Source of the DNA: Oscillospiraceae bacterium
GTDB lineage: Bacteria; Bacillota; Clostridia; Oscillospirales; UBA929
DNA length: 64,000 nt
NCBI GenBank assembly: GCA_031265355.1
Contig: JAISCT010000069.1
Span: 1 to 64,000 of the forward strand
Direction: 5' to 3'
Each line of letters opens with the position of its first letter. Positions within the stretch are counted from its first letter, which is position 1. A program made the position numbers and the translations under genes. The notes under the pieces are model-generated. The model was given only the letters and a program-made list of their open reading frames with translations. It was not told the origin of the DNA and did no database searches. This document shows, one piece after another, positions 3,850-17,266 of this stretch.

Positions 3850-4053
3850 TTACCCACCCAAGCCCTGAGCGTTGAACATGTGTTTCTCCCCGTTGTTAAA
3901 TGTGACTTCAATTGAGTATGGGTACGGCTTGATGGTGTACTGGATCGCCTTCGCCGACACCGGGCGCAAATGCGATTTCTCGCACTCCCGCGCTTCTTTG
4001 TAGGTATCAAACGTATGGAGGCATTTGGCGCACTTGAGGTAGGTTATAGGCAT
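3850..4053 (-). CDS. Small zinc-ribbon-like protein, 67 aa
   Basis: Starts MPITYLKCAKCLHTFDTYKE, with GGAAGGTGAG just upstream. It contains CxxC (CAKC) followed by an alpha-helical EARECEKSH, a C2-CH-like metal-site arrangement. The C-terminal half is a short beta-rich segment (YSIEVTFNNGEKHMF). It lies within the conjugative-element operon. The function is unknown; such small zinc-finger proteins are common cargo of clostridial elements. Confidence 0.62.
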   Translation of the reverse strand: MPITYLKCAKCLHTFDTYKEARECEKSHLRPVSAKAIQYTIKPYPYSIEVTFNNGEKHMFNAQGLGG

Positions 4054-4056
4054 AAC

Positions 4057-4140
4057 TCACCTTCCGCGCTCCCGCGCCCGACAACCTAAATCTTCAAGGC
4101 GATACTCGAAACAGTCATAAATTCTTGTGAACTGGGTCAT
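4057..4140 (-). CDS. 27-residue truncated small gene, paralogous to the 78-aa protein
   Basis: A short frame starting MTQFTRIYDCFEYRLEDLGC with a perfect AGGAGG eight to thirteen bases upstream. It matches the N-terminus of the 3416-3652 product (TRIYxxFxYxLxDLxC), then ends after seven further residues. The strong ribosome binding site suggests a once longer gene that lost its 3' part by recombination. It could still be translated as a leader for the next gene, which starts three bases after its stop. Confidence 0.45.
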   Translation of the reverse strand: MTQFTRIYDCFEYRLEDLGCRARERGR

Positions 4141-4170
4141 TCCGATCCCTCCTAAATTTTTTGGCACAAT

Positions 4171-4225
4171 GAAAAACACCCCCTCGCGTTCCCAATCCTT
4201 GTGGGTTGGGAACGCGAGGGGGTGT
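4171..4225 (-). terminator. Intrinsic terminator inside the conjugative element
   Basis: A perfect 20-bp inverted repeat (4176-4195 with 4206-4225, 10-base loop) is followed, in minus-strand direction, by GTGTTTTTC. It lies just after the 126-aa gene, so it separates the parA-parB transcription unit from the downstream transfer genes. Confidence 0.85.
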
Positions 4226-4238
4226 CTGTGATCCGCCG

Positions 4239-4619
4239 CTATTTCCTCTTAATGGCGATACTGATGTTCGAGTAATCAAACTCAGTGTGCGCGAGTACCA
4301 AACATCTGAGGATATACATCATGGTTTGCGAGCTGTAATATGTTTCGATATACATATCCTCACAGATTTTCAGCGGCCTCCGCATACCTGAATCGCTCGC
4401 GGACAGGATTCTTTGAATTTTGCCGTAAACCTTGTCGCGCAGGTACATCAGACGCTCATGCTGTTCGCTGTCGCACCGCGCCAGGATTATGCCCACGACC
4501 TGCTGCCATGTTTTCACATTCACTCGTTCGTCACCGAACAGGACGGCTGACGGTTCCTTGCCGATGAATAGGCTTGAATGAATCTGAAGTGGATAGATCA
4601 ATTCAAAAGCCGCATTCAT
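4239..4619 (-). CDS. Hypothetical protein downstream of parB, 126 aa
   Basis: Begins MNAAFELIYPLQIHSSLFIG and continues with a helical region (NVKTWQQVVGIILARC, ERLMYLRDKV). It has no signal peptide or membrane segment. The ATG overlaps the parB stop as ATGA, so it is translationally coupled to parB, and the terminator at 4171-4225 closes the unit. I do not recognise a family; a partition or copy-control accessory is possible from context only. Confidence 0.68.
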   Translation of the reverse strand: MNAAFELIYPLQIHSSLFIGKEPSAVLFGDERVNVKTWQQVVGIILARCDSEQHERLMYLRDKVYGKIQRILSASDSGMRRPLKICEDMYIETYYSSQTMMYILRCLVLAHTEFDYSNISIAIKRK

Positions 4620-5509
4620 CCCGCCACCCTCGCTTTCCAGTCTGCCAGCAGACCAATTATTACCGTCTCCATCTGTTTGGGCGAGTATTCCGGCGGGAAA
4701 AATCGCCGGAACCGCAGGGAACCTGCCGGCTCGCCTTTGTGTAGCTTTTTGTCCTCTGAGAGTACCGCGTCAATAGTCTCGGTGGTAAGCGTCCCGTCTT
4801 GCTTCAGCTTTTTCAGCCGAACAGCTTGCGAGAGCGAGGGTTTGACCTCGTACCGCGCCATCGCGTCCGCGACGGCGGTCTGCTCCGGTATGGACAGATA
4901 TGACAGTTCCACGGCGGGGTTGAACGCGAGTTTATTCGCGTCAACTTTGTCGAGCAGGGCGTCAATCAGTTCGGTAAGCCGGATATAGCGGAAGATTTGG
5001 TTTTTCTTCTCGCCGGTTTTCGCCTCCATAACCTGATACGAGTGCTGTCTTCCCCTGACGCCGCTGTGGTTCAGCGCTTCCATTTCTATATGATACGCCC
5101 ACGCCTTTTCGCTGGGCAGAATCCGCTCCCTGTGCAGGAGGTTGGAATCGACCATGATGATGGCGGCTTCATCGTCCGTGAGTTCGCGGATTATGACGGG
5201 CAGATTCGCTTTTCCAGCCAGTTCACACGCTCTCTTGCGGCGGTTGCCGACGAGCAGCTCATAGCCACCGTCCGCTCTCGGACGGACAAGTCCCGGCTCT
5301 CGGACGCCGTATTCCTTAACGCTTTCGGCAAGCCGCTCCATCTCCGCGTCGTCGTTGATTTGAAACGGGTGGAAGTCAGGCGGGAACAGTTCGGGGAGCG
5401 GCAGTTCAACGATTTGCTCGCCCCGCATGGTCAAGACCTTGCCTGTTGGACTGAAAATGTCATCAAATCCCGCGAGGGCGAGGGTTCCGGCTGTCTGATT
5501 ACGCGGCAT
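4616..5509 (-). CDS. parB: ParB/RepB/Spo0J-type DNA-binding partition protein
   Basis: 297 residues from ATG at 5509, chosen because GGAGGGGG precedes it; the longer frame runs back inside parA. The N-terminal ParB/Srx fold is seen in FHPFQINDDAEMERLAESVKE and LLVGNRRKRACELAG, the canonical GNRRxxA box. The LLHRERILPSEKAWAYH segment leads to a helix-turn-helix region. It would bind parS-like sites on the element and act with ParA. It overlaps parA by 11 bases. Confidence 0.9.
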   Translation of the reverse strand: MPRNQTAGTLALAGFDDIFSPTGKVLTMRGEQIVELPLPELFPPDFHPFQINDDAEMERLAESVKEYGVREPGLVRPRADGGYELLVGNRRKRACELAGKANLPVIIRELTDDEAAIIMVDSNLLHRERILPSEKAWAYHIEMEALNHSGVRGRQHSYQVMEAKTGEKKNQIFRYIRLTELIDALLDKVDANKLAFNPAVELSYLSIPEQTAVADAMARYEVKPSLSQAVRLKKLKQDGTLTTETIDAVLSEDKKLHKGEPAGSLRFRRFFPPEYSPKQMETVIIGLLADWKARVAG

Positions 5510-6460: not shown

Positions 6461-7281
6461 GGATCACCCCCGCTTACGCGGGGAACACAACGAATTCGGT
6501 CTGTTTTGTCTCATCATTAAAGGATCACCCCCGCTTCCGCGGGGAACACCACCGCCGTATCTTCCTGAAAAACCGTCAGATGGGATCACCCCCGCTTACG
6601 CGGGGAACACTTTTGGCCTGCGTCTTGTCTGTCGGCCACGTTAGGATCACCCCCGCTTACGCGGGGAACACAAGAACTTGAAAATGCTTCTTCAAAACGC
6701 CATAGGATCATCCCCGCTTACGCGGGGAACACCTTCCTTTCGTTTCAAAACATTTGTTATCCCGGGGATCACCCCCGCTTACGCGGGGAACACTATATAG
6801 TAGGGCACGCAAAAGTAGATACCTTAGGATCACCCCCGCTTACGCGGGGAACACGTGCTCATGCTTGTAGCAGAGTCCGCACGGACAGGATCACCCCCGC
6901 TTACGCGGGGAACACAGGGCCCGTAGGGTGTCTAGCATTTTTTGCGCGGGATCACCCCCGCTTACGCGGGGAACACAGGAGGAAATAAAAATGACAAGCA
7001 CAACGACAAGGATCACCCCCGCTTACGCGGGGAACACGCTGCCTCCGACACATCTCAACCTACTCTTGGAGGATCACCCCCGCTTACGCGGGGAACACCT
7101 AGGCCCCTGATTGTTGTGCTTGTCATTTTTAGGATCACCCCCGCTTACGCGGGGAACACTGTATACGTGCGTGGCTTTTCCCAGTCCGAGAGGGATCACC
7201 CCCGCTTACGCGGGGAACACTACAGCGGATTGTGTGTGCCGCCGCTGTACAGCGGATCACCCCCGCTTACGCGGGGAACAC
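6461..7281 (-). CRISPR. Type I-E CRISPR array: 14 repeats, 13 spacers
   Basis: Fourteen 28-bp repeats with an exact 61-bp period; every spacer is 33 nt. In crRNA sense (minus strand) repeats begin GTGTTCCCCGCGTAAGCGGG and end GGTGATCC, a typical I-E hairpin repeat. Repeat starts: 6461, 6522, 6583, 6644, 6705, 6766, 6827, 6888, 6949, 7010, 7071, 7132, 7193, 7254. Variants occur at 6522 (loop A to C) and 6705 (C to T), both toward the leader-distal end, as expected of older repeats. The newest spacer is 7221-7253. The first crRNA-sense base of each spacer is T or C in 12 of 13. Confidence 0.98.
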
Positions 7282-7368
7282 ACTAAGAAAACCCTTGTGT
7301 CATCTACACATCCAGTATCCAGAGCGCCGAAATTCATTTACTTTTCTTGTTACAAAACCATCGTGCTG
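7282..7368 (-). promoter_or_regulatory. CRISPR leader
   Basis: The 87 bases between the cas2-dnaQ stop and the first (leader-proximal) repeat are AT-richer than the flanks and must hold the leader and any array promoter. I see no strong -35/-10 pair, so the array may rely partly on read-through from the cas operon. Orientation follows from the repeat sequence, the position of the degenerate repeats at the far end, and the adjoining adaptation genes. Confidence 0.7.
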
Positions 7369-9842
<2,474 letters not shown>

Positions 9843-9846
<4 letters not shown>

Positions 9847-10475
9847 GGCATCTCCGATTCTTTAAACCAATCTATTTCATCTTCAATTTCACCAATTTGC
9901 TTTTCTGCGGAGATTTGTTCCACACAACGGAAGCCGTATTCGCGCCGTATTTGGCTGAAACTTACGGGTACATCACGAACCAAATAAACACCATCGCCAT
10001 CATAAGAAATATATTCCCATCCGGCGTCGGTTCTCAACGCGTCAAGCAACGACTCTTTTACGATCCCGAGCGCGACTTTCCCCTCAGGCGGACAACTTCT
10101 TCTTCCCAAAAATAGGGGAAACGCCGGTCGACGTAATGCCGCGTCAATATCATGGAGAAGAGCTTCTACTCCCTCCAACCCCGCCGTAAATTTTGCATCC
10201 GCCAGGTAGTACCGATTTGTAACATAGGCTGTTTTCCCACTCTTCGCCGTATGATAGTCACGCAACAATACACCCGGCCTGTCCACGCGCACACCAAATT
10301 TCAGGGAAGAAAGCTCATGTATTTTCTCTTTGTTCTCGCGTGAAATACCTATAGCGGCCGCACACAAACCGATGACCCCGCTCTTCGTAGGAACACGCTC
10401 AGTGCCGCGTCGGTCGAATTTGCTGCCGACTCCCCAAGACTGGAGCGGCGCAGCCAGCCTAAGAAGTATGGTCAT
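9843..10475 (-). CDS. cas5e: Cas5e Cascade subunit
   Basis: 210 residues. Cas5e (CasD) binds the crRNA 5' handle. The N-terminus MTILLRLAAPLQSWGVGSKF is the classic I-E Cas5 signature, followed by RRGTERVPTKSGVIGL. The C-terminus includes RDVPVSFSQIRREYGFR. It overlaps the cas7 gene by 17 bases, with GAGGAA upstream of the start. Confidence 0.95.
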
Positions 10476-11592
10476 TTAAGTATTCCTCAATTTTCTTGGC
10501 AAGAGCATCCAGCTTGACCTTTTCTACCGTCGTACCAAGCGCAGCAAGCACATCAGGCGCACCGAGCGCGGCACCCACAACAAAAGACTTTTCCGGCTCC
10601 GCAAGCCAATCCGAATATGTCTCATTAACCTTTTTAATCAGCTGTTCGACAGAGCCCGCAAAGTATCCATTTTTAGGCTTCACCGGATTTTCAAAAGCAC
10701 CAACAAAGTTTACCGGCTGATCCCCCCGAATTGTGACAAGTACCGCATCGGGAATCGTACGGTTTGCGAAGGTGTTTTGCTTACCTGTTGGCATAGCCCG
10801 TGCAAATACGTCCACAAAAGTACCTACAGCCTTCGCCGTGGCGGCGCCGAGTTTTCTCTGCAGATCATGCACCGCCACAGTCGCGTAGCGATACAGTGTC
10901 GATGAGTTGAACTCTACCGTGCCGATCATCCCCGCTCCAGCATCGGTTTTTTCTTCAGCTGGAAAGTCGTCTACGGCGGTAAAATAGTCAAATTCATTTT
11001 CGACCTTATGCGTTGAAATTGCATGCGCAACCTGCGTTGTCGCATCTGTATTCAGCCCTGGATCGTCCGCAACCATTCGTCCAAACAGCGCGACGTCAAT
11101 AGCAGGATTATCGGTCAGCGCCTTCTGCGCTTTTGGATCCGTTCCTTTCTTCTTTTGCATGTCTTTGGCGTCGCTTTTCAGAATTTCATCCTCGACAACG
11201 AGTTTTGCGAGTGCTTTCGCCTGCGATACGCTCATAAAGAACAATGGCGCATCCTTTCCGGCTTTCGTGCTCTTTTCCTGAAGACCAGCGAGCTGCAATA
11301 CTTTTTCTGCATCCGTCTTGACGGCAGTTTTGTCATACTCCGGGTTCAGCGCATAGATTTCTTTCGCGACCATATCTGCGATTCGCTTCGTGCGAACGCC
11401 GACTTCGTTCTCGGCAAGCTCCTTACTGAATATATCTCGCACAGCCTTTTTCCACGACTGGCTTGACACACGCGCGCGCGTTACACCGCCATAAACCGCC
11501 GTTTTGGGCGCTCCGACATCGTCCCGGTTTATGCAACTCGGCGGCACTGTCTGGAGTATGTGGATGTCGATATAAAGCCTATTATTGTTCAT
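10459..11592 (-). CDS. cas7e: Cas7e (Cse4/CasC) Cascade backbone
   Basis: 377 residues. Six copies of Cas7e form the Cascade filament and kink the crRNA at every sixth base. Start MNNNRLYIDIHILQTVPPSC, after GAGGAGG at nine bases. Family motifs: NRDDVGAPKTAVYGGVTRAR and SSQSWKKAVR near the N-terminus, FNSSTLYRYATVAVHDL in the middle. It overlaps cse2 by 11 bases. No frameshift or missing segment is seen. Confidence 0.95.
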   Translation of the reverse strand: MNNNRLYIDIHILQTVPPSCINRDDVGAPKTAVYGGVTRARVSSQSWKKAVRDIFSKELAENEVGVRTKRIADMVAKEIYALNPEYDKTAVKTDAEKVLQLAGLQEKSTKAGKDAPLFFMSVSQAKALAKLVVEDEILKSDAKDMQKKKGTDPKAQKALTDNPAIDVALFGRMVADDPGLNTDATTQVAHAISTHKVENEFDYFTAVDDFPAEEKTDAGAGMIGTVEFNSSTLYRYATVAVHDLQRKLGAATAKAVGTFVDVFARAMPTGKQNTFANRTIPDAVLVTIRGDQPVNFVGAFENPVKPKNGYFAGSVEQLIKKVNETYSDWLAEPEKSFVVGAALGAPDVLAALGTTVEKVKLDALAKKIEEYLNDHTS

Positions 11593-12208
11593 TGCGTTTT
11601 TCCTCCTCTTCATTATTCGTCATATCTGCATTTTTGTTCCTGTAAAAGTCGAGGCCCCACTGGCGGCGCACATCATCACGAGTTTTCAGAAAATGAAACC
11701 AGTACAGATCCTCCGCGAGCGCAGGATAATCGAGCGGTATTCCCTCAGCCCTCAGCAGCTGTACAAATCCGCGCAGATGCTGAGCAAACTCCTTTGTACT
11801 ATCCGAGGCTGCCGCGTCAACAAATCTTCGCCGCACAGGTCCCTCGCCCCACTGATCGCCATCGCGCGCTGACGCGAGCTTACGCGCTGCAGCGCCCAGC
11901 GATATGCCCGAAATGCTCATTGGCGACTGCTTCACGTCGCTGCTCTGCTGATGTAACGCGTAAAGCGTGATCGCCGTATATATCGCGTTTTCCTCCGCTA
12001 TCTGTCTGGCGTGGTCGCTGGAGAGCTTGTCAGGCACATCCGCAAATACCAATCCCCAAAGCGCCGGTATGCTCCACGGCGGTTTTCCCACCCCGCGCCT
12101 CAGTTTGGCAAGCGATGCCCGCGCTACGGACTCTCCACGCTGTGTGAGCGTTTCAATCTTCCTCTTTACACATCCAGACACAAGCCTTGCTTCCCATGCT
12201 TTGTTCAA
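11582..12208 (-). CDS. casB: Cse2 (CasB) Cascade small subunit
   Basis: 208 residues. Cse2 dimerises along the Cascade belly and stabilises the R-loop. Family features: SVARASLAKLRRGVGKPPW near the N-terminus, then NAIYTAITLYALHQQS, and GPVRRRFVDAAAS in the basic groove region. The C-terminal tail is acidic (NNEEEEEKRNEQ-like), longer than usual. It lies 13 bases before the cse1 stop in genomic order and overlaps cas7. Confidence 0.92.
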   Translation of the reverse strand: MNKAWEARLVSGCVKRKIETLTQRGESVARASLAKLRRGVGKPPWSIPALWGLVFADVPDKLSSDHARQIAEENAIYTAITLYALHQQSSDVKQSPMSISGISLGAAARKLASARDGDQWGEGPVRRRFVDAAASDSTKEFAQHLRGFVQLLRAEGIPLDYPALAEDLYWFHFLKTRDDVRRQWGLDFYRNKNADMTNNEEEEKRNEQ

Positions 12209-12221
12209 TTTTCATCACTCC

Positions 12222-13808
12222 TCATATTCGCAAAGATGTCGCGGCGAGGAAATAGCCGTACGCCCGCGGCGAGCTGTTTTCGCCTCGTCCCACAAATGCC
12301 TTCATTCCGGCGGCACTGAACAACTCCTCTCCAAGCCTTCGGACAATCCGCTGTGCGGTTTCCCGCCACTCGTACGATTTATTATCCATGTCGTCCTGTT
12401 TCGGATCAATACTCTCCAACCACCGACGGAATGGCATATCGAGGCGAAAGTACGCCTGTTCACGGGCAGAATCGCGTTCTCCCGCACCGTCTCCACCACT
12501 CGCTTTTGCGATTTTTGCGGCGAGTTCACCGACAGCATATGCCCATTTTTCGGTAACTTCAAGTTCGTCGATTATACGATATCCCCAACCTTCCTGCCCG
12601 CCATCGAGCCTAACGAGCAGTGCCATGTTGAATGTAAGCGAATCGGCAAATGTATCTGTAACTGCAGCTTGCATGCTACCATATTTGATGCCGGTCGTTC
12701 CAAACGAGATTACCGCTTTATCCAAAGTTCCTTGGTCCTTCAGGTAGGCGAGCCAAGAGATCACACCCGGACGGCGTGCTCCATCTATTGGTGCTATTAA
12801 TGCTGAATAATCACGCCACAACTGCCTACTTGCATGATGACGACGAGGACTGTATTCCGGCGGTGCATTTTTTTTATCTTTATTTGAGTGATACCACGCC
12901 GCCATCGGCTCCACAAATGCATTCACCGGTGAACAGAAATCACCACTGACAAATCGATATGAAACAACATGACCATTTTGCTGTTTCAATAAAACCAATC
13001 GTGATTGCAAAGTATACAGTTCTGAAAGATTGTCCGGTGTTCTTATGGAGCGATGCTCACGCGTCCTCTGTTCAAGCCAAGCCGGTTTTTCTTCGTTCCA
13101 CGGGCTACCATTGTCGAGTAATACAAAATTCAATACAAGCGTCTCAAAAAAATTGTCGCCCGTGGCGTATATCTGCCCGAACTTACCGAGCCAACCCGTT
13201 CCCGCAGTTCCTGGATCGCCGTGCTTCTTTCCATGCTGTTCGAGTTTCCCAAATGATTCTGCATAAGCAACAAAATAGATAAGCCACCGCGCCGCTTCAG
13301 CATATGTAATCGATACTTTCCCATCGCCGGAGCGAGGTGGAAATAGTCGCGGTTTATTTTCACTCTCCGCCAACTCTCCTATCAGTTTTGACACAGGAAA
13401 TGGACCGAACACTTCGTCTATCATATCAACAACTTTCGCCTGATAAAACGGTGTCTCATCGTGGAACAGCCAAAACCGCTCTTCATACTTTTCAAGATAG
13501 CGTTCAATCCGTTCACACGGAAACGCACCGCGGTCCCACAATGCACCCCACAGTGCAAACGCGCCGTCAATTTTATCGTCTTCGTTGTCCGGCAGCTCAT
13601 TGCCGTCGATATCTCTTCCACCAAGCGCCGCATGGAGAATCGCGAGAAGCAGCCGCAGTACAGCGATGTCCTGCGTCGGAAGCTCACCCGCGAGGGCTCG
13701 CAGTTCCGACGCACGCCGAAAAATCTCGATAAGCGATAATGCCTCCGTCTTTCCATTCAGTGTCATTACAAGGATCCATTTCTCACGCAACAGATTGAAC
13801 TCTTTCAC
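12222..13808 (-). CDS. casA: Cse1 (Cas8e/CasA) Cascade large subunit
   Basis: 528 residues from GTG at 13808. I chose this start because I-E Cse1 proteins begin M-x-F-N-L-L and this gives MKEFNLLREKWILV; TTG starts at 13841 or 13823 (after GAAAGGGG) would add 5-11 residues. Cse1 reads the PAM and recruits Cas3. Family segments include TQDIAVLRLLLAILHAAL and FQ-region residues around FGPFPVSKLIGEL. It lies 94 bases downstream of the antitoxin gene with no clear promoter between them, so the Cascade operon is probably transcribed from 14510-14538. Confidence 0.92.
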   Translation of the reverse strand: MKEFNLLREKWILVMTLNGKTEALSLIEIFRRASELRALAGELPTQDIAVLRLLLAILHAALGGRDIDGNELPDNEDDKIDGAFALWGALWDRGAFPCERIERYLEKYEERFWLFHDETPFYQAKVVDMIDEVFGPFPVSKLIGELAESENKPRLFPPRSGDGKVSITYAEAARWLIYFVAYAESFGKLEQHGKKHGDPGTAGTGWLGKFGQIYATGDNFFETLVLNFVLLDNGSPWNEEKPAWLEQRTREHRSIRTPDNLSELYTLQSRLVLLKQQNGHVVSYRFVSGDFCSPVNAFVEPMAAWYHSNKDKKNAPPEYSPRRHHASRQLWRDYSALIAPIDGARRPGVISWLAYLKDQGTLDKAVISFGTTGIKYGSMQAAVTDTFADSLTFNMALLVRLDGGQEGWGYRIIDELEVTEKWAYAVGELAAKIAKASGGDGAGERDSAREQAYFRLDMPFRRWLESIDPKQDDMDNKSYEWRETAQRIVRRLGEELFSAAGMKAFVGRGENSSPRAYGYFLAATSLRI

Positions 13809-13902
13809 AGGGCAAATCAACCCCTTTCTACAGTAAAGCAAGTTCGTTTTCTCTGTCTTTACAACATCAAACCTACCACTCGCTCACACGGAAACTGCAC
13901 CA

Positions 13903-14100
13903 TCAATTCCAGTCGATATCCTCGTGCCGCACACAATCGCCTTGCCGAAAGGCTTCTCGCCCTATCTCAATGGCCTCTATTTCGTTGGATGTCGGCGTAT
14001 CCTCAGGAATGAATTTTGAAAGCACATGATAAAGAACATCAAATTCGGAAGCATCCACTATATTAATGAGATCGTGAAGCTGTTCACGGCTTACATTCAT
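13903..14100 (-). CDS. Antitoxin of the RelE-type pair, 65 aa
   Basis: Start MNVSREQLHDLINIVDASEF at 14100, after AAAGGAG. The small acidic, helical protein ends RHEDIDWN, the kind of tail seen in clostridial RelB/Phd-like antitoxins. It follows the toxin gene by 13 bases. Toxin-first order is less usual, as in HigBA. It sits inside the cas operon between the mini-CRISPR and cse1 and should neutralise the neighbouring RelE-like toxin. Confidence 0.72.
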   Translation of the reverse strand: MNVSREQLHDLINIVDASEFDVLYHVLSKFIPEDTPTSNEIEAIEIGREAFRQGDCVRHEDIDWN

Positions 14101-14113
14101 ACGATAACTCCTT

Positions 14114-14347
14114 TCATTTTTTGTATGCCTCTCCACGCGAGAGAATGTTTGTAATCTTAATGTCTTCTCGCATATCAAACAATATTCGCCAACCACCAAC
14201 ACGCAACCGATATGCATATAGGAACCCCGTTAATTTTTTCACGTCACCAGCCGGCAGCTTTTCAATAGCCGCTTTTATTCGTTGTTTTGTATGGATATCC
14301 ATGTGAGAGATGGCCCTGACAGCCGGTCTTGAATACGTGACAATCAT
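14114..14347 (-). CDS. RelE/ParE-family toxin, 77 aa
   Basis: Starts MIVTYSRPAVRAISHMDIHT and carries the RelE/ParE fold pattern: KQRIKAAIEKL helix, then the beta hairpin AYRLRVGGWRILFDM and ITNILSRGEAYKK. The GxWRILF motif is the hallmark strand of the superfamily. RelE proteins cleave mRNA at the ribosome; ParE proteins act on gyrase; the subfamily cannot be settled here. Its ATG lies 45 bases downstream of the mini-CRISPR, so that element forms part of its 5' leader. Confidence 0.82.
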   Translation of the reverse strand: MIVTYSRPAVRAISHMDIHTKQRIKAAIEKLPAGDVKKLTGFLYAYRLRVGGWRILFDMREDIKITNILSRGEAYKK

Positions 14348-14391: not shown

Positions 14392-14469
14392 GTATCACCC
14401 CCGCTTACGCGGGGAACATTGGTAAATACATACAAATCACTGGATCACCTCCGCTTACGCGGAGAACAA
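14392..14469 (-). CRISPR. Degenerate two-repeat mini-CRISPR with a 22-nt spacer (candidate cas-regulating guide)
   Basis: Two I-E repeat relics lie at 14442-14469 and 14392-14419 (transcript order), separated by only 22 nt instead of 33. The first differs from the array consensus at three sites, two of which are a compensatory pair keeping the stem (CTCCGC/GCGGAG instead of CCCCGC/GCGGGG). The second differs at its two ends only. In crRNA sense the spacer is AGTGATTTGTATGTATTTAC followed by CA. Bases 2-16 match the promoter-proximal sequence at 14503-14489 except at guide positions 6 and 12. The layout matches the CreR class of cas-autorepressing mini-CRISPRs. Confidence 0.8.
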
Positions 14470-14482
14470 TCTGCAACGCACC

Positions 14483-14506
14483 AGTTATATATATACATAT
14501 CACATT
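14483..14506 (-). promoter_or_regulatory. Putative Cascade self-target (operator) for the mini-CRISPR guide
   Basis: On the minus strand, AAT (14506-14504) is followed by GTGATATGTATATATATAAC. Compared with the mini-CRISPR guide, 16 of 22 positions match. Counting the first spacer base as position 0, mismatches are at 6, 12, 16, 19 and 21. Positions 6 and 12 are the flipped-out bases of I-E crRNA. AA lies where the PAM is expected. The site begins at the predicted transcription start, so Cascade bound here would block the promoter. Confidence 0.6.
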
Positions 14507-14509
14507 ATT

Positions 14510-14538
14510 ATAATACCATGGTTAAATTCTTATGTCAA
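14510..14538 (-). promoter_or_regulatory. Promoter of the mini-CRISPR / toxin-antitoxin / Cascade operon
   Basis: Perfect -35 TTGACA at 14538-14533, 17-bp spacer, and extended -10 TGG-TATTAT at 14515-14510. It lies 38 bases after the cas3 stop and reads toward cse1. The predicted start is near 14503. No other convincing promoter is seen before cas2, and the genes downstream are closely packed. Confidence 0.82.
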
Positions 14539-14575: not shown

Positions 14576-17266
14576 TTACATTTTCGCCCAACTCAGTCCA
14601 TTGTCTCTATCGTACAAGACGTAATATCCGCCAAGTGCCGTCTCATCGTTTTCGTCAAACACAAGAAACAGCTCTCCCGCCAGCCACGACGAGGTCTGCC
14701 ACTGCGGGAACTTCTTGAGGCACAGTTCTTCAAGCTCTTTTATGCACTCAACTGTTGACAGCACAACGGGAAGTCGTATGCTCTGCCGCGCAAGATGACG
14801 CGCCGTCTCCTCGCTTATATCGTGTTCTGGGAGCGCCACACCGTCAGTTGTTGTAAGTTTTCCACCATGTTCAAAAACAGCGAGGACCTCAATTGCCGAA
14901 TCTGTGTCACGCACAGCGCACTCACCACGTTTGCCCGACGGATCGTCCGGGACGTCGGTGCTCAGCCAATCGACAATCGTCGCATCTTCTCTGTCCGACG
15001 GATTTGCTATCTTGAAATCTCCAGCCTTTTTTCTTTGCATCACAATCTCCGCGTCCCAAAGCGCATACAGCGACTCGTCGCCACCACCGTCATAAGCCGC
15101 TTCCACGAGTTCCGGAATGTCGCGCGGGAGCGCGACGTTGTCCGGTAGAAGCTCGCGCGTGCGAGAGAGAAGATACTCTCCGTAAACCTTGACGGAGCCC
15201 TCGTCAAAGTCCTCATCCAGTTCAATCCCCGTCACATAGCATACCGGTTGTGAAACCGCTACTGGACGCACGCGTCCCGCGTGGCGATGAAGCCGTCCGA
15301 TTCTTTGTAACAGTAAGTCCATCGGACAAACATCCGTTATGAGTACGTCGAAGTCAATATCCAGTGACTGCTCCAACACCTGCGTTCCGACGACGATCAA
15401 CCTCTGCGGGCGCTCTGGGTTGTCGGTGGGCTTACCGAGTTTCTTGAGAAGCTCTGCTTCACGCTTGACGCGCTCCGCCGCTATCAACCGTGAGTGTATG
15501 AGCAGCACATCATCGTCCCCGAATTTCTCCCGCAGGCGTTTTGCGAGACTTTGCGCCCTTTTTACCGTGTTTACGATCACCCCCGCCACTCCGCCGTCCA
15601 ACAGTAACGCCCCAAGCTTGTCCGTTATATTGTCAAACCCGAGCCTGTTGACCGCGATGACTGTATCCGAGTCCTCCTGTTCAACCTCGCACTGCCAAAC
15701 GCCGTCACCGTCGGTGTATGTAATCAGTGGATACGCACGATTGTTCGCGATTTCGACGCCGAATTTCGGCACTCTGTCACCGCGATACGCCGAAATAACC
15801 GACGCACGTTTCGCACCTGTGAGCGTCGCGGAGAGCACGATCACAGGCACACCATAAGCACCGAGCCAACGGAGCGCCGTTTCAAGGTATCGGCTCATAT
15901 ACGCGTCATAGGCATGGCATTCGTCGATGATCACAACCTTTTCGGCAAGCCCGAGATGCCGTAGCATCAGATGCTTCATCTTCAGCGCGGCAAGCAGCAC
16001 TTGATCGATCGTACCGACGGCAAAATCAGCAAGCATCGCGCGCTTCCGACCGGAAAACCATGCGTGAACACCCACTTGGCCTCTTTCTCTGTTGACATCC
16101 AAATCGTTTCCAATATTCGAATCATCACCGAATTTTGGCAATTTTTGGTATTTTTCATTGAGCCACGATTTGCCGTGTACAAGCTCCACGCTATGCGCCA
16201 TGCCGTCGTCAAAGCTGTTAATCCAATGCAAAAAACGCGGGAATATACCGTCCGATGTCGCCTGCGTTGGTAGGGCGAAGAATACGCCACCGCGCCCGGC
16301 TTTATGTGCGAAAATCTCCGCCGCCGCAAGCGCCGCTTCCGTTTTGCCCTTGCCCATAGGCGCCTCAATGACCATCATGCCGGGAATGTGGATATTCACT
16401 GCGATGTCCGCCACGGCTTTTTGCATCGCATTTGCTTGATGAAAGCCAAAACGCTCCATGTATACGTCAGGATGCACATATGGACTGTCAGCAATCCACG
16501 GCTGGGTAAACGTGAGCACATCGAATGCATTTCTCGCGCGGTCTGCGGAGTCGAGCTCGATTTCCGCGTCAATCGAAATCAAGGGAAAATAACATTCGTT
16601 CGAGGCAATCCAATCCGCCATGATGACAAGTCCGACAAGTAAGACCTGCGCGGCGGGCTTTGGTTTCGATAGATCCTTGGCGGAGCTCATACCCGCGAGC
16701 TTCAACGCCCATGTGACAATCTCCTGCTGCGCGGCCTCCCAGCACCGGTGTCCGCGTCCATAGTTATTCCTATGTGAACAGTAGGTCTTTTTGTAGCCAG
16801 CATTTGACGGCTTGCCGTGATGGGCACCCACGATGACTGCAATGTGCTTGGCGTACTCCATATTCTCCAAGAGCACCTGCGAGGCGAGCGCATGCGGCGT
16901 CGCCGACGGGTCTTTCATCGGCGGCCACTCATACCCCATAAAACGCAGCCTTTCACATATCCGCTCGTCCAAGTCTCGATTTTTCGGATATGTCTCCTTC
17001 TTCTGAAACGCCGGCGTCGCTTTGCCGAGATCATGCACCGCCGCAGTAAAAATGCACAGCGCCCGCGCCGCGGACTCATCGCACTGGCAAGCTTCTGCGA
17101 CGCGTTTTTTGACCCCGTCCGTGATATGCCTGTCCCACAGCAATTTCGCCGTTTCGGCGGTGTCCGACAAATGAACCTGGAGCGGCAACCACTGCATACC
17201 GCCGCCGCGTGACTTCTTCGCCCAGAGTACCCCGAGCGGAACGCCGCCCTGCGCCACTTCACACAC
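14576..17266 (-). CDS. cas3: Cas3 HD nuclease-helicase, type I-E
   Basis: 896 residues from GTG at 17266 (GGGAGG seven bases upstream). N-terminal HD nuclease: VHLSDTAETAKLLWDRH, AAVHDLGKATPAF, and VGAHHGKPS. Superfamily-2 helicase: IEAPMGKGKTEAALAAAE (motif I), IIDECHAYD (DECH motif II), LSATL (motif III), and a C-terminal helicase lobe with LLQRIGRLHRH (motif VI). Cas3 is recruited by Cse1 and degrades DNA at the R-loop. It is transcribed apart from the Cascade genes; a weak ATGACA/TATTCC pair is the best promoter candidate upstream. Confidence 0.96.
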   Translation of the reverse strand: MCEVAQGGVPLGVLWAKKSRGGGMQWLPLQVHLSDTAETAKLLWDRHITDGVKKRVAEACQCDESAARALCIFTAAVHDLGKATPAFQKKETYPKNRDLDERICERLRFMGYEWPPMKDPSATPHALASQVLLENMEYAKHIAVIVGAHHGKPSNAGYKKTYCSHRNNYGRGHRCWEAAQQEIVTWALKLAGMSSAKDLSKPKPAAQVLLVGLVIMADWIASNECYFPLISIDAEIELDSADRARNAFDVLTFTQPWIADSPYVHPDVYMERFGFHQANAMQKAVADIAVNIHIPGMMVIEAPMGKGKTEAALAAAEIFAHKAGRGGVFFALPTQATSDGIFPRFLHWINSFDDGMAHSVELVHGKSWLNEKYQKLPKFGDDSNIGNDLDVNRERGQVGVHAWFSGRKRAMLADFAVGTIDQVLLAALKMKHLMLRHLGLAEKVVIIDECHAYDAYMSRYLETALRWLGAYGVPVIVLSATLTGAKRASVISAYRGDRVPKFGVEIANNRAYPLITYTDGDGVWQCEVEQEDSDTVIAVNRLGFDNITDKLGALLLDGGVAGVIVNTVKRAQSLAKRLREKFGDDDVLLIHSRLIAAERVKREAELLKKLGKPTDNPERPQRLIVVGTQVLEQSLDIDFDVLITDVCPMDLLLQRIGRLHRHAGRVRPVAVSQPVCYVTGIELDEDFDEGSVKVYGEYLLSRTRELLPDNVALPRDIPELVEAAYDGGGDESLYALWDAEIVMQRKKAGDFKIANPSDREDATIVDWLSTDVPDDPSGKRGECAVRDTDSAIEVLAVFEHGGKLTTTDGVALPEHDISEETARHLARQSIRLPVVLSTVECIKELEELCLKKFPQWQTSSWLAGELFLVFDENDETALGGYYVLYDRDNGLSWAKM

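Follow-up and report, generated by a model that had tools for sequence, protein, structure and literature searches.

We analyzed a 64,000-nucleotide stretch of DNA (the window) from an Oscillospiraceae bacterium, the minus strand of which carries a complete type I-E CRISPR-Cas locus. Along this strand, cas3 is followed by a promoter, a degenerate repeat (psiR1), a 22-nt spacer, a second degenerate repeat (psiR2), a RelE-like toxin gene, a probable antitoxin gene and the genes from cse1 to cas2. The features of the locus are:

14576..17266, minus strand: cas3, upstream of the promoter
14510..14538, minus strand: promoter, with TTGACA at 14538-14533, a 17-nt gap, TATTAT at 14515-14510 and an extended -10 (TG), from the sequence and a consensus scan (11/12)
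14483..14506, minus strand: guide target, with PAM AA at 14506-14505, T0 at 14504 and positions 1-21 at 14503-14483
14442..14469, minus strand: psiR1, degenerate I-E repeat with intact 3' handle GTGATCC
14420..14441, minus strand: 22-nt spacer analogue (guide AGTGATTTGTATGTATTTACCA); spacers of the main array are 33 nt
14392..14419, minus strand: psiR2, a degenerate I-E repeat whose hairpin is intact
14114..14347, minus strand: RelE/ParE-family toxin gene (77 aa), the first gene 3' of the mini-CRISPR, from PHROG, PDB and tblastn matches
13903..14100, minus strand: probable antitoxin gene (65 aa), from the place of the ORF after the toxin gene and its size; no family match
12222..13841, minus strand: cse1/cas8e
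7369..12208, minus strand: cse2, cas7e, cas5e, cas6e, cas1e, and cas2 fused to a DnaQ-like exonuclease
6461..7284, minus strand: main CRISPR array, with 14 repeats and 33-nt spacers

The two-repeat unit thus lies between cas3 and cse1, outside the main array and adjoining the cas operon, which is the placement of a CreR. The original prediction had set the outer limits of the element at 14392-14538; these limits are exact, and its descriptions of the promoter, repeats, spacer and target agree with the sequence to the base.

In the consensus scan, the promoter has 11 of 12 consensus bases and a TG before the -10 element. Transcription would be expected to start at 14503, where the guide target also begins, giving a leader of ~34 nt before psiR1 at 14469. 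This leaves no room between promoter and psiR1 for a CreT RNA toxin gene, which was rejected as a candidate, as was antisense action on the leader RNA, the guide having the sense of the transcript. Downstream on the promoter's strand are cse1 and the following cas genes, with no minus-strand terminator predicted and the toxin-antitoxin gene pair in between; cas3 lies upstream and is therefore not under this promoter. The type I-E operon had been predicted as the controlled unit; the cas genes do follow on the same strand, but the intervening RelE-type gene pair had been missed. A short palindrome is present at 14486-14499. The promoter stretch TTGACATAAGAATTT...CATGGTAT has only two copies in the genome at up to 3 mismatches, the second being a near-identical copy elsewhere (L183; G000:C11:22772-22797, minus strand) that has no guide target.

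Numbering the guide from position 0 at the last PAM base, we find that it pairs with 14504-14483 at positions 1-5, 7-11, 13-15, 17, 18 and 20 and is mismatched at positions 0, 6, 12, 16, 19 and 21, with an adjoining AA that makes an AAT PAM. The target at 14504-14483, the AA at the PAM position and the list of mismatches had been read correctly in the original prediction, which also called for a shuffling test of the guide. When this test was run on the 300-nt upstream region, 0 of 20,000 dinucleotide shuffles gave as many as the observed 14 of 15 non-flipped matches with an AA PAM, and a single one of 50,000 reached the observed match when the 112-nt promoter stretch (71% A+T) was shuffled alone. 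The best of 931 canonical spacers from 52 loci matched the window promoter at 11 of 15 positions, compared with 14 of 15 for the mini-CRISPR guide, and the longest seed run was 8 for canonical spacers and 13 for the guide. Across the 3.08-Mb genome, the core pattern AANGTGATNTGTATNTAT is confined to a single place, the guide target, and the reversed control pattern is absent. By these three controls (shuffles, canonical spacers and whole-genome uniqueness), the partial complementarity of the guide to a promoter upstream of cas genes, together with its PAM, is far beyond chance.

We compared 80 I-E loci, mostly from metagenome bins, of which 62 include upstream DNA and a complete gene of cas3 size, and a further 34 stretches that came partly from genomes already sampled. 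Mini-CRISPRs were chosen by their repeats alone, without reference to any guide match. Most of the I-E operons examined have no such mini-CRISPR. Six further two-repeat mini-CRISPRs were found beside type I-E operons: L054 (Oscillospiraceae Glo450_bin9, of the family to which the window genome belongs), L056 (Paenibacillus ginsengihumi), L117 (Fusobacterium naviforme), L057, L112 and L171. That of L054 lies between cas3 and cse1, as in the window, and those of the other five lie upstream of cas3. A relaxed scan for repeats with guide matches yielded no extra mini-CRISPRs, only overlapping canonical spacer pairs and array register errors. In L112, a canonical array (4004-5182) ends ~210 nt upstream of the regulatory mini-CRISPR, which may be the broken-off end of that array.

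For each mini-CRISPR, the best guide site was sought within 400 nt on either side and scored without PAM or position weighting. In the six further loci this site lies in neighbouring intergenic DNA, and in all seven (window included) it adjoins AA; position 0 is T in six of them and C in the seventh. At flipped positions 6 and 12, 12 of 14 bases are mismatched, as against 6 of 91 elsewhere in positions 1-15 (seven loci; Fisher P = 8e-10). Such a concentration is the pattern that selection on Cascade pairing would be expected to leave, since type I-E Cascade skips every sixth base (PMC5904413). The earlier point that positions 6 and 12 go unread fits both these counts and data on CreA, whose guide needs matches at positions 1-5 and 7-11 and can dispense with 6 and 12 (PMC8501985). 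In L056 and L171, the targets lie downstream of the mini-CRISPR and before cas3, and the guides appear to target the cas3 promoter region, so that strict targeting of the guide's own promoter is seen in five of the seven loci. The L056 target (4881-4940) is palindromic, giving a site on both strands and hence a second site of equal score, and the L056 mini-CRISPR has an apparent terminator of its own before the cas3 promoter.

Of the 931 canonical spacers in the compared loci, 855 begin with T or C, which implies the PAM AAY, and one phage contig contains a partial protospacer of a window spacer that adjoins AAT. These two lines of evidence indicate that AAT is an ordinary PAM for the window's I-E system. 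Two main-array spacers (7131-7099 and 7009-6977) cover one phage site from opposite strands; this site is partially matched at ~2408-2428 of viral contig L182, at the apparent start of a phage gene.

The psiR1 stem CTCCGC/GCGGAG differs from CCCCGC/GCGGGG by a compensatory change in which one C-G pair has become T-A. The six-pair stem is kept in all 17 repeats and repeat relics examined; three of its pairs are changed on both sides, and the covariation score exceeds those of all 500 shuffles. Across the seven loci, the 7-base 5' handle is conserved at 44 of 49 bases in psiR1 and at 26 of 49 in psiR2, a pattern that fits a 5' handle coming from psiR1, with psiR2 needed for its hairpin only. The repeat relics are not uniform, unlike those of an array under adaptation, and divergence between psiRs is known to make such units more stable (PMC9458426). 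An ordinary immune array would have uniform repeats and 33-nt spacers, whereas the window unit has degenerate repeats and a 22-nt spacer. A search of the viral contigs with 21 nt of the guide gave no exact match, and a role for the guide as an antiviral spacer was rejected, although this result in itself is weak evidence.

These observations bear on the simplest alternative, that the unit is a decaying two-repeat relic array with no present function, in which the likeness of spacer to promoter is due to chance in A+T-rich DNA or is left over from a self-acquired spacer. Both repeats are indeed degenerate and the promoter stretch is rich in A+T, but shuffles, canonical spacers and genome-wide uniqueness all speak against a fortuitous match. 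Nor would decay account for a design shared by seven loci with mismatches gathered on flipped bases, for compensatory changes in the stem, or for a handle that is kept only where a guide RNA needs one. We regard a functionless relic as very unlikely. The CreR-type autorepression originally predicted is instead supported by the beyond-chance match and by its recurrence in six other I-E loci with a matching PAM and mismatch pattern, and we put the probability that the window unit is a CreR-type cas-regulating mini-CRISPR with a self-repressing guide at roughly 0.87, the RNA and the repression being predicted from sequence.

We propose that transcription from the promoter at 14538-14510 would produce a leader containing psiR1, the spacer and psiR2, followed by relE, the antitoxin gene, cse1 and the other genes for Cascade and adaptation. 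Cleavage by Cas6e after each of the two hairpins would release a guide RNA of ~50 nt, made up of an 8-nt handle (GUGAUCCA), a 21-nt guide and a 21-nt 3' hairpin. Loaded with this guide, Cascade would use positions 1-5, 7-11 and 13-15 to bind its own promoter at the +1 site, which AAT flanks, and would prevent initiation, and cleavage would be avoided because the pairing would be too short to license Cas3. Whenever competing crRNAs or anti-CRISPR proteins lowered the amount of free Cascade, transcription would be expected to rise again; with the guide and the Cascade genes on one promoter, such a loop would limit itself.

This scheme can be set against what is known of Cascade binding. A PAM and five seed bases suffice for binding, while interference needs 18-25 bp of pairing (PMC5904413), and in a type I-B system spacers no longer than 24 nt give repression but no cleavage (PMC10989794). 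In E. coli, many partial-match Cascade sites have no effect on transcription, though few of these are on promoters (PMC5904413). The window guide is also 11 nt shorter than a canonical one, which counts against the CreR reading, as does the lack of such a mini-CRISPR in most of the I-E operons examined. Reviews describe CreRs that autorepress I-B, I-E and V-A systems by means of partial complementarity to promoters (PMC13131331, PMC12737573; CreR is also cited in PMC12948488). The window unit resembles them in being a mini-CRISPR beside a cas operon, in its partial complementarity to the predicted cas promoter, in the PAM by the target and in its I-E effector; it differs in its 22-nt rather than ~33-nt spacer, in the RelE-type toxin and antitoxin genes between guide and cse1, and in having cas3 outside the controlled unit.

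The nature of the intervening gene pair suggests further alternatives. The product of 14114..14347 matches a PHROG RelE-like toxin (6.2e-12) and RelE3 in the PDB (2.8e-4), with tblastn matches to annotated RelE/ParE toxins. The following 65-aa product has no match in Pfam, NCBIfam, PADLOC or PHROG; 13903..14100 is probably the antitoxin gene, judging from its place and size. The RelE-type pair was found by tblastn in none of the other I-E loci compared (those up to L119) and is absent from the corresponding place in L054. The guide could act chiefly as a CreA-like antitoxin that silences the RelE-type toxin; the toxin would then be freed when Cascade is lost or an anti-CRISPR protein is present, following the logic of CreTA and CrePA, with cas control as a by-product. 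Downstream of the mini-CRISPR, at a distance of 44 nt, the toxin gene comes before any other, in the same orientation and with no terminator predicted on the minus strand, and CrePA uses a protein toxin (PMC12737573). The toxin gene nevertheless directly precedes a probable antitoxin gene of its own, L054, the nearest relative, shows this promoter-guide design with no toxin gene, and in the other loci the unit is placed immediately before cas3, all of which makes a primary antitoxin role for the guide unlikely.

It is common for type II antitoxins to bind the promoters of their own genes, and the antitoxin protein might accordingly control this promoter, as in ordinary type II pairs, from an operator over the same A+T-rich stretch, with the guide match being secondary. 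The palindrome at 14486-14499 would suit such an operator, but the guide match is present in relatives that have no gene pair and the antitoxin belongs to no recognised DNA-binding family. Control chiefly by the protein is highly improbable; protein and guide could act on the promoter together.

A CreR self-brake in type I-E is already known, as is self-regulation by a guide of its own promoter in CreTA (PMC8501985). The closed loop of guide and promoter, put forward in the original prediction, is supported on sequence grounds but is not new, as CreA already autoregulates its own promoter (PMC8501985). The window unit shares with CreA of CreTA a divergent psiR1 and psiR2, a seed at positions 1-5 and 7-11 and, by prediction, own-promoter autoregulation (PMC8501985, PMC9458426). 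It differs from CreTA in that no creT RNA toxin fits the window leader and in that the targeted promoter precedes, and is predicted to drive, cas genes. A protein toxin under a Cascade-repressed promoter, as in CrePA, is possible in the window, but the window toxin resembles RelE where that of CrePA is KilA-N, and the window toxin comes with a probable protein antitoxin (PMC12737573). In L-tracrRNA autoregulation of Cas9, a CRISPR-derived guide RNA represses its own cas promoter through short pairing, but that system is type II, tracrRNA-based and relies on an unrelated effector (PMC8730458).

Two features may be unusual, the 21-nt length of this natural guide and the placing of a RelE-type pair between guide and cse1. 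We tentatively raise the possibility of a CreR/CrePA hybrid, in which Cascade and a CreR-type guide would repress one transcript carrying both a type II toxin-antitoxin pair and the Cascade genes, loss or inhibition of Cascade would raise both, and the 21-nt guide would constitute a natural shortened-guide, repression-only Cascade. If true, this would place a conventional protein gene pair under RNA-guided control, and the presence of a RelE-type pair in the predicted controlled unit raises the question of whether CRISPR control is linked to conventional toxin-antitoxin genes.

Our findings suggest that RNA-guided cas autorepression extends to type I-E operons in an Oscillospiraceae-type lineage and in several other bacteria. 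A PAM-flanked match between guide and promoter with mismatches on flipped positions 6 and 12 is a signature that can be recognised without expression data, and it could serve in searches across genomes for regulators of this kind. Further along the same operon, at 7369-8283 on the minus strand, Cas2 is fused to a DnaQ-like DEDDh exonuclease domain.
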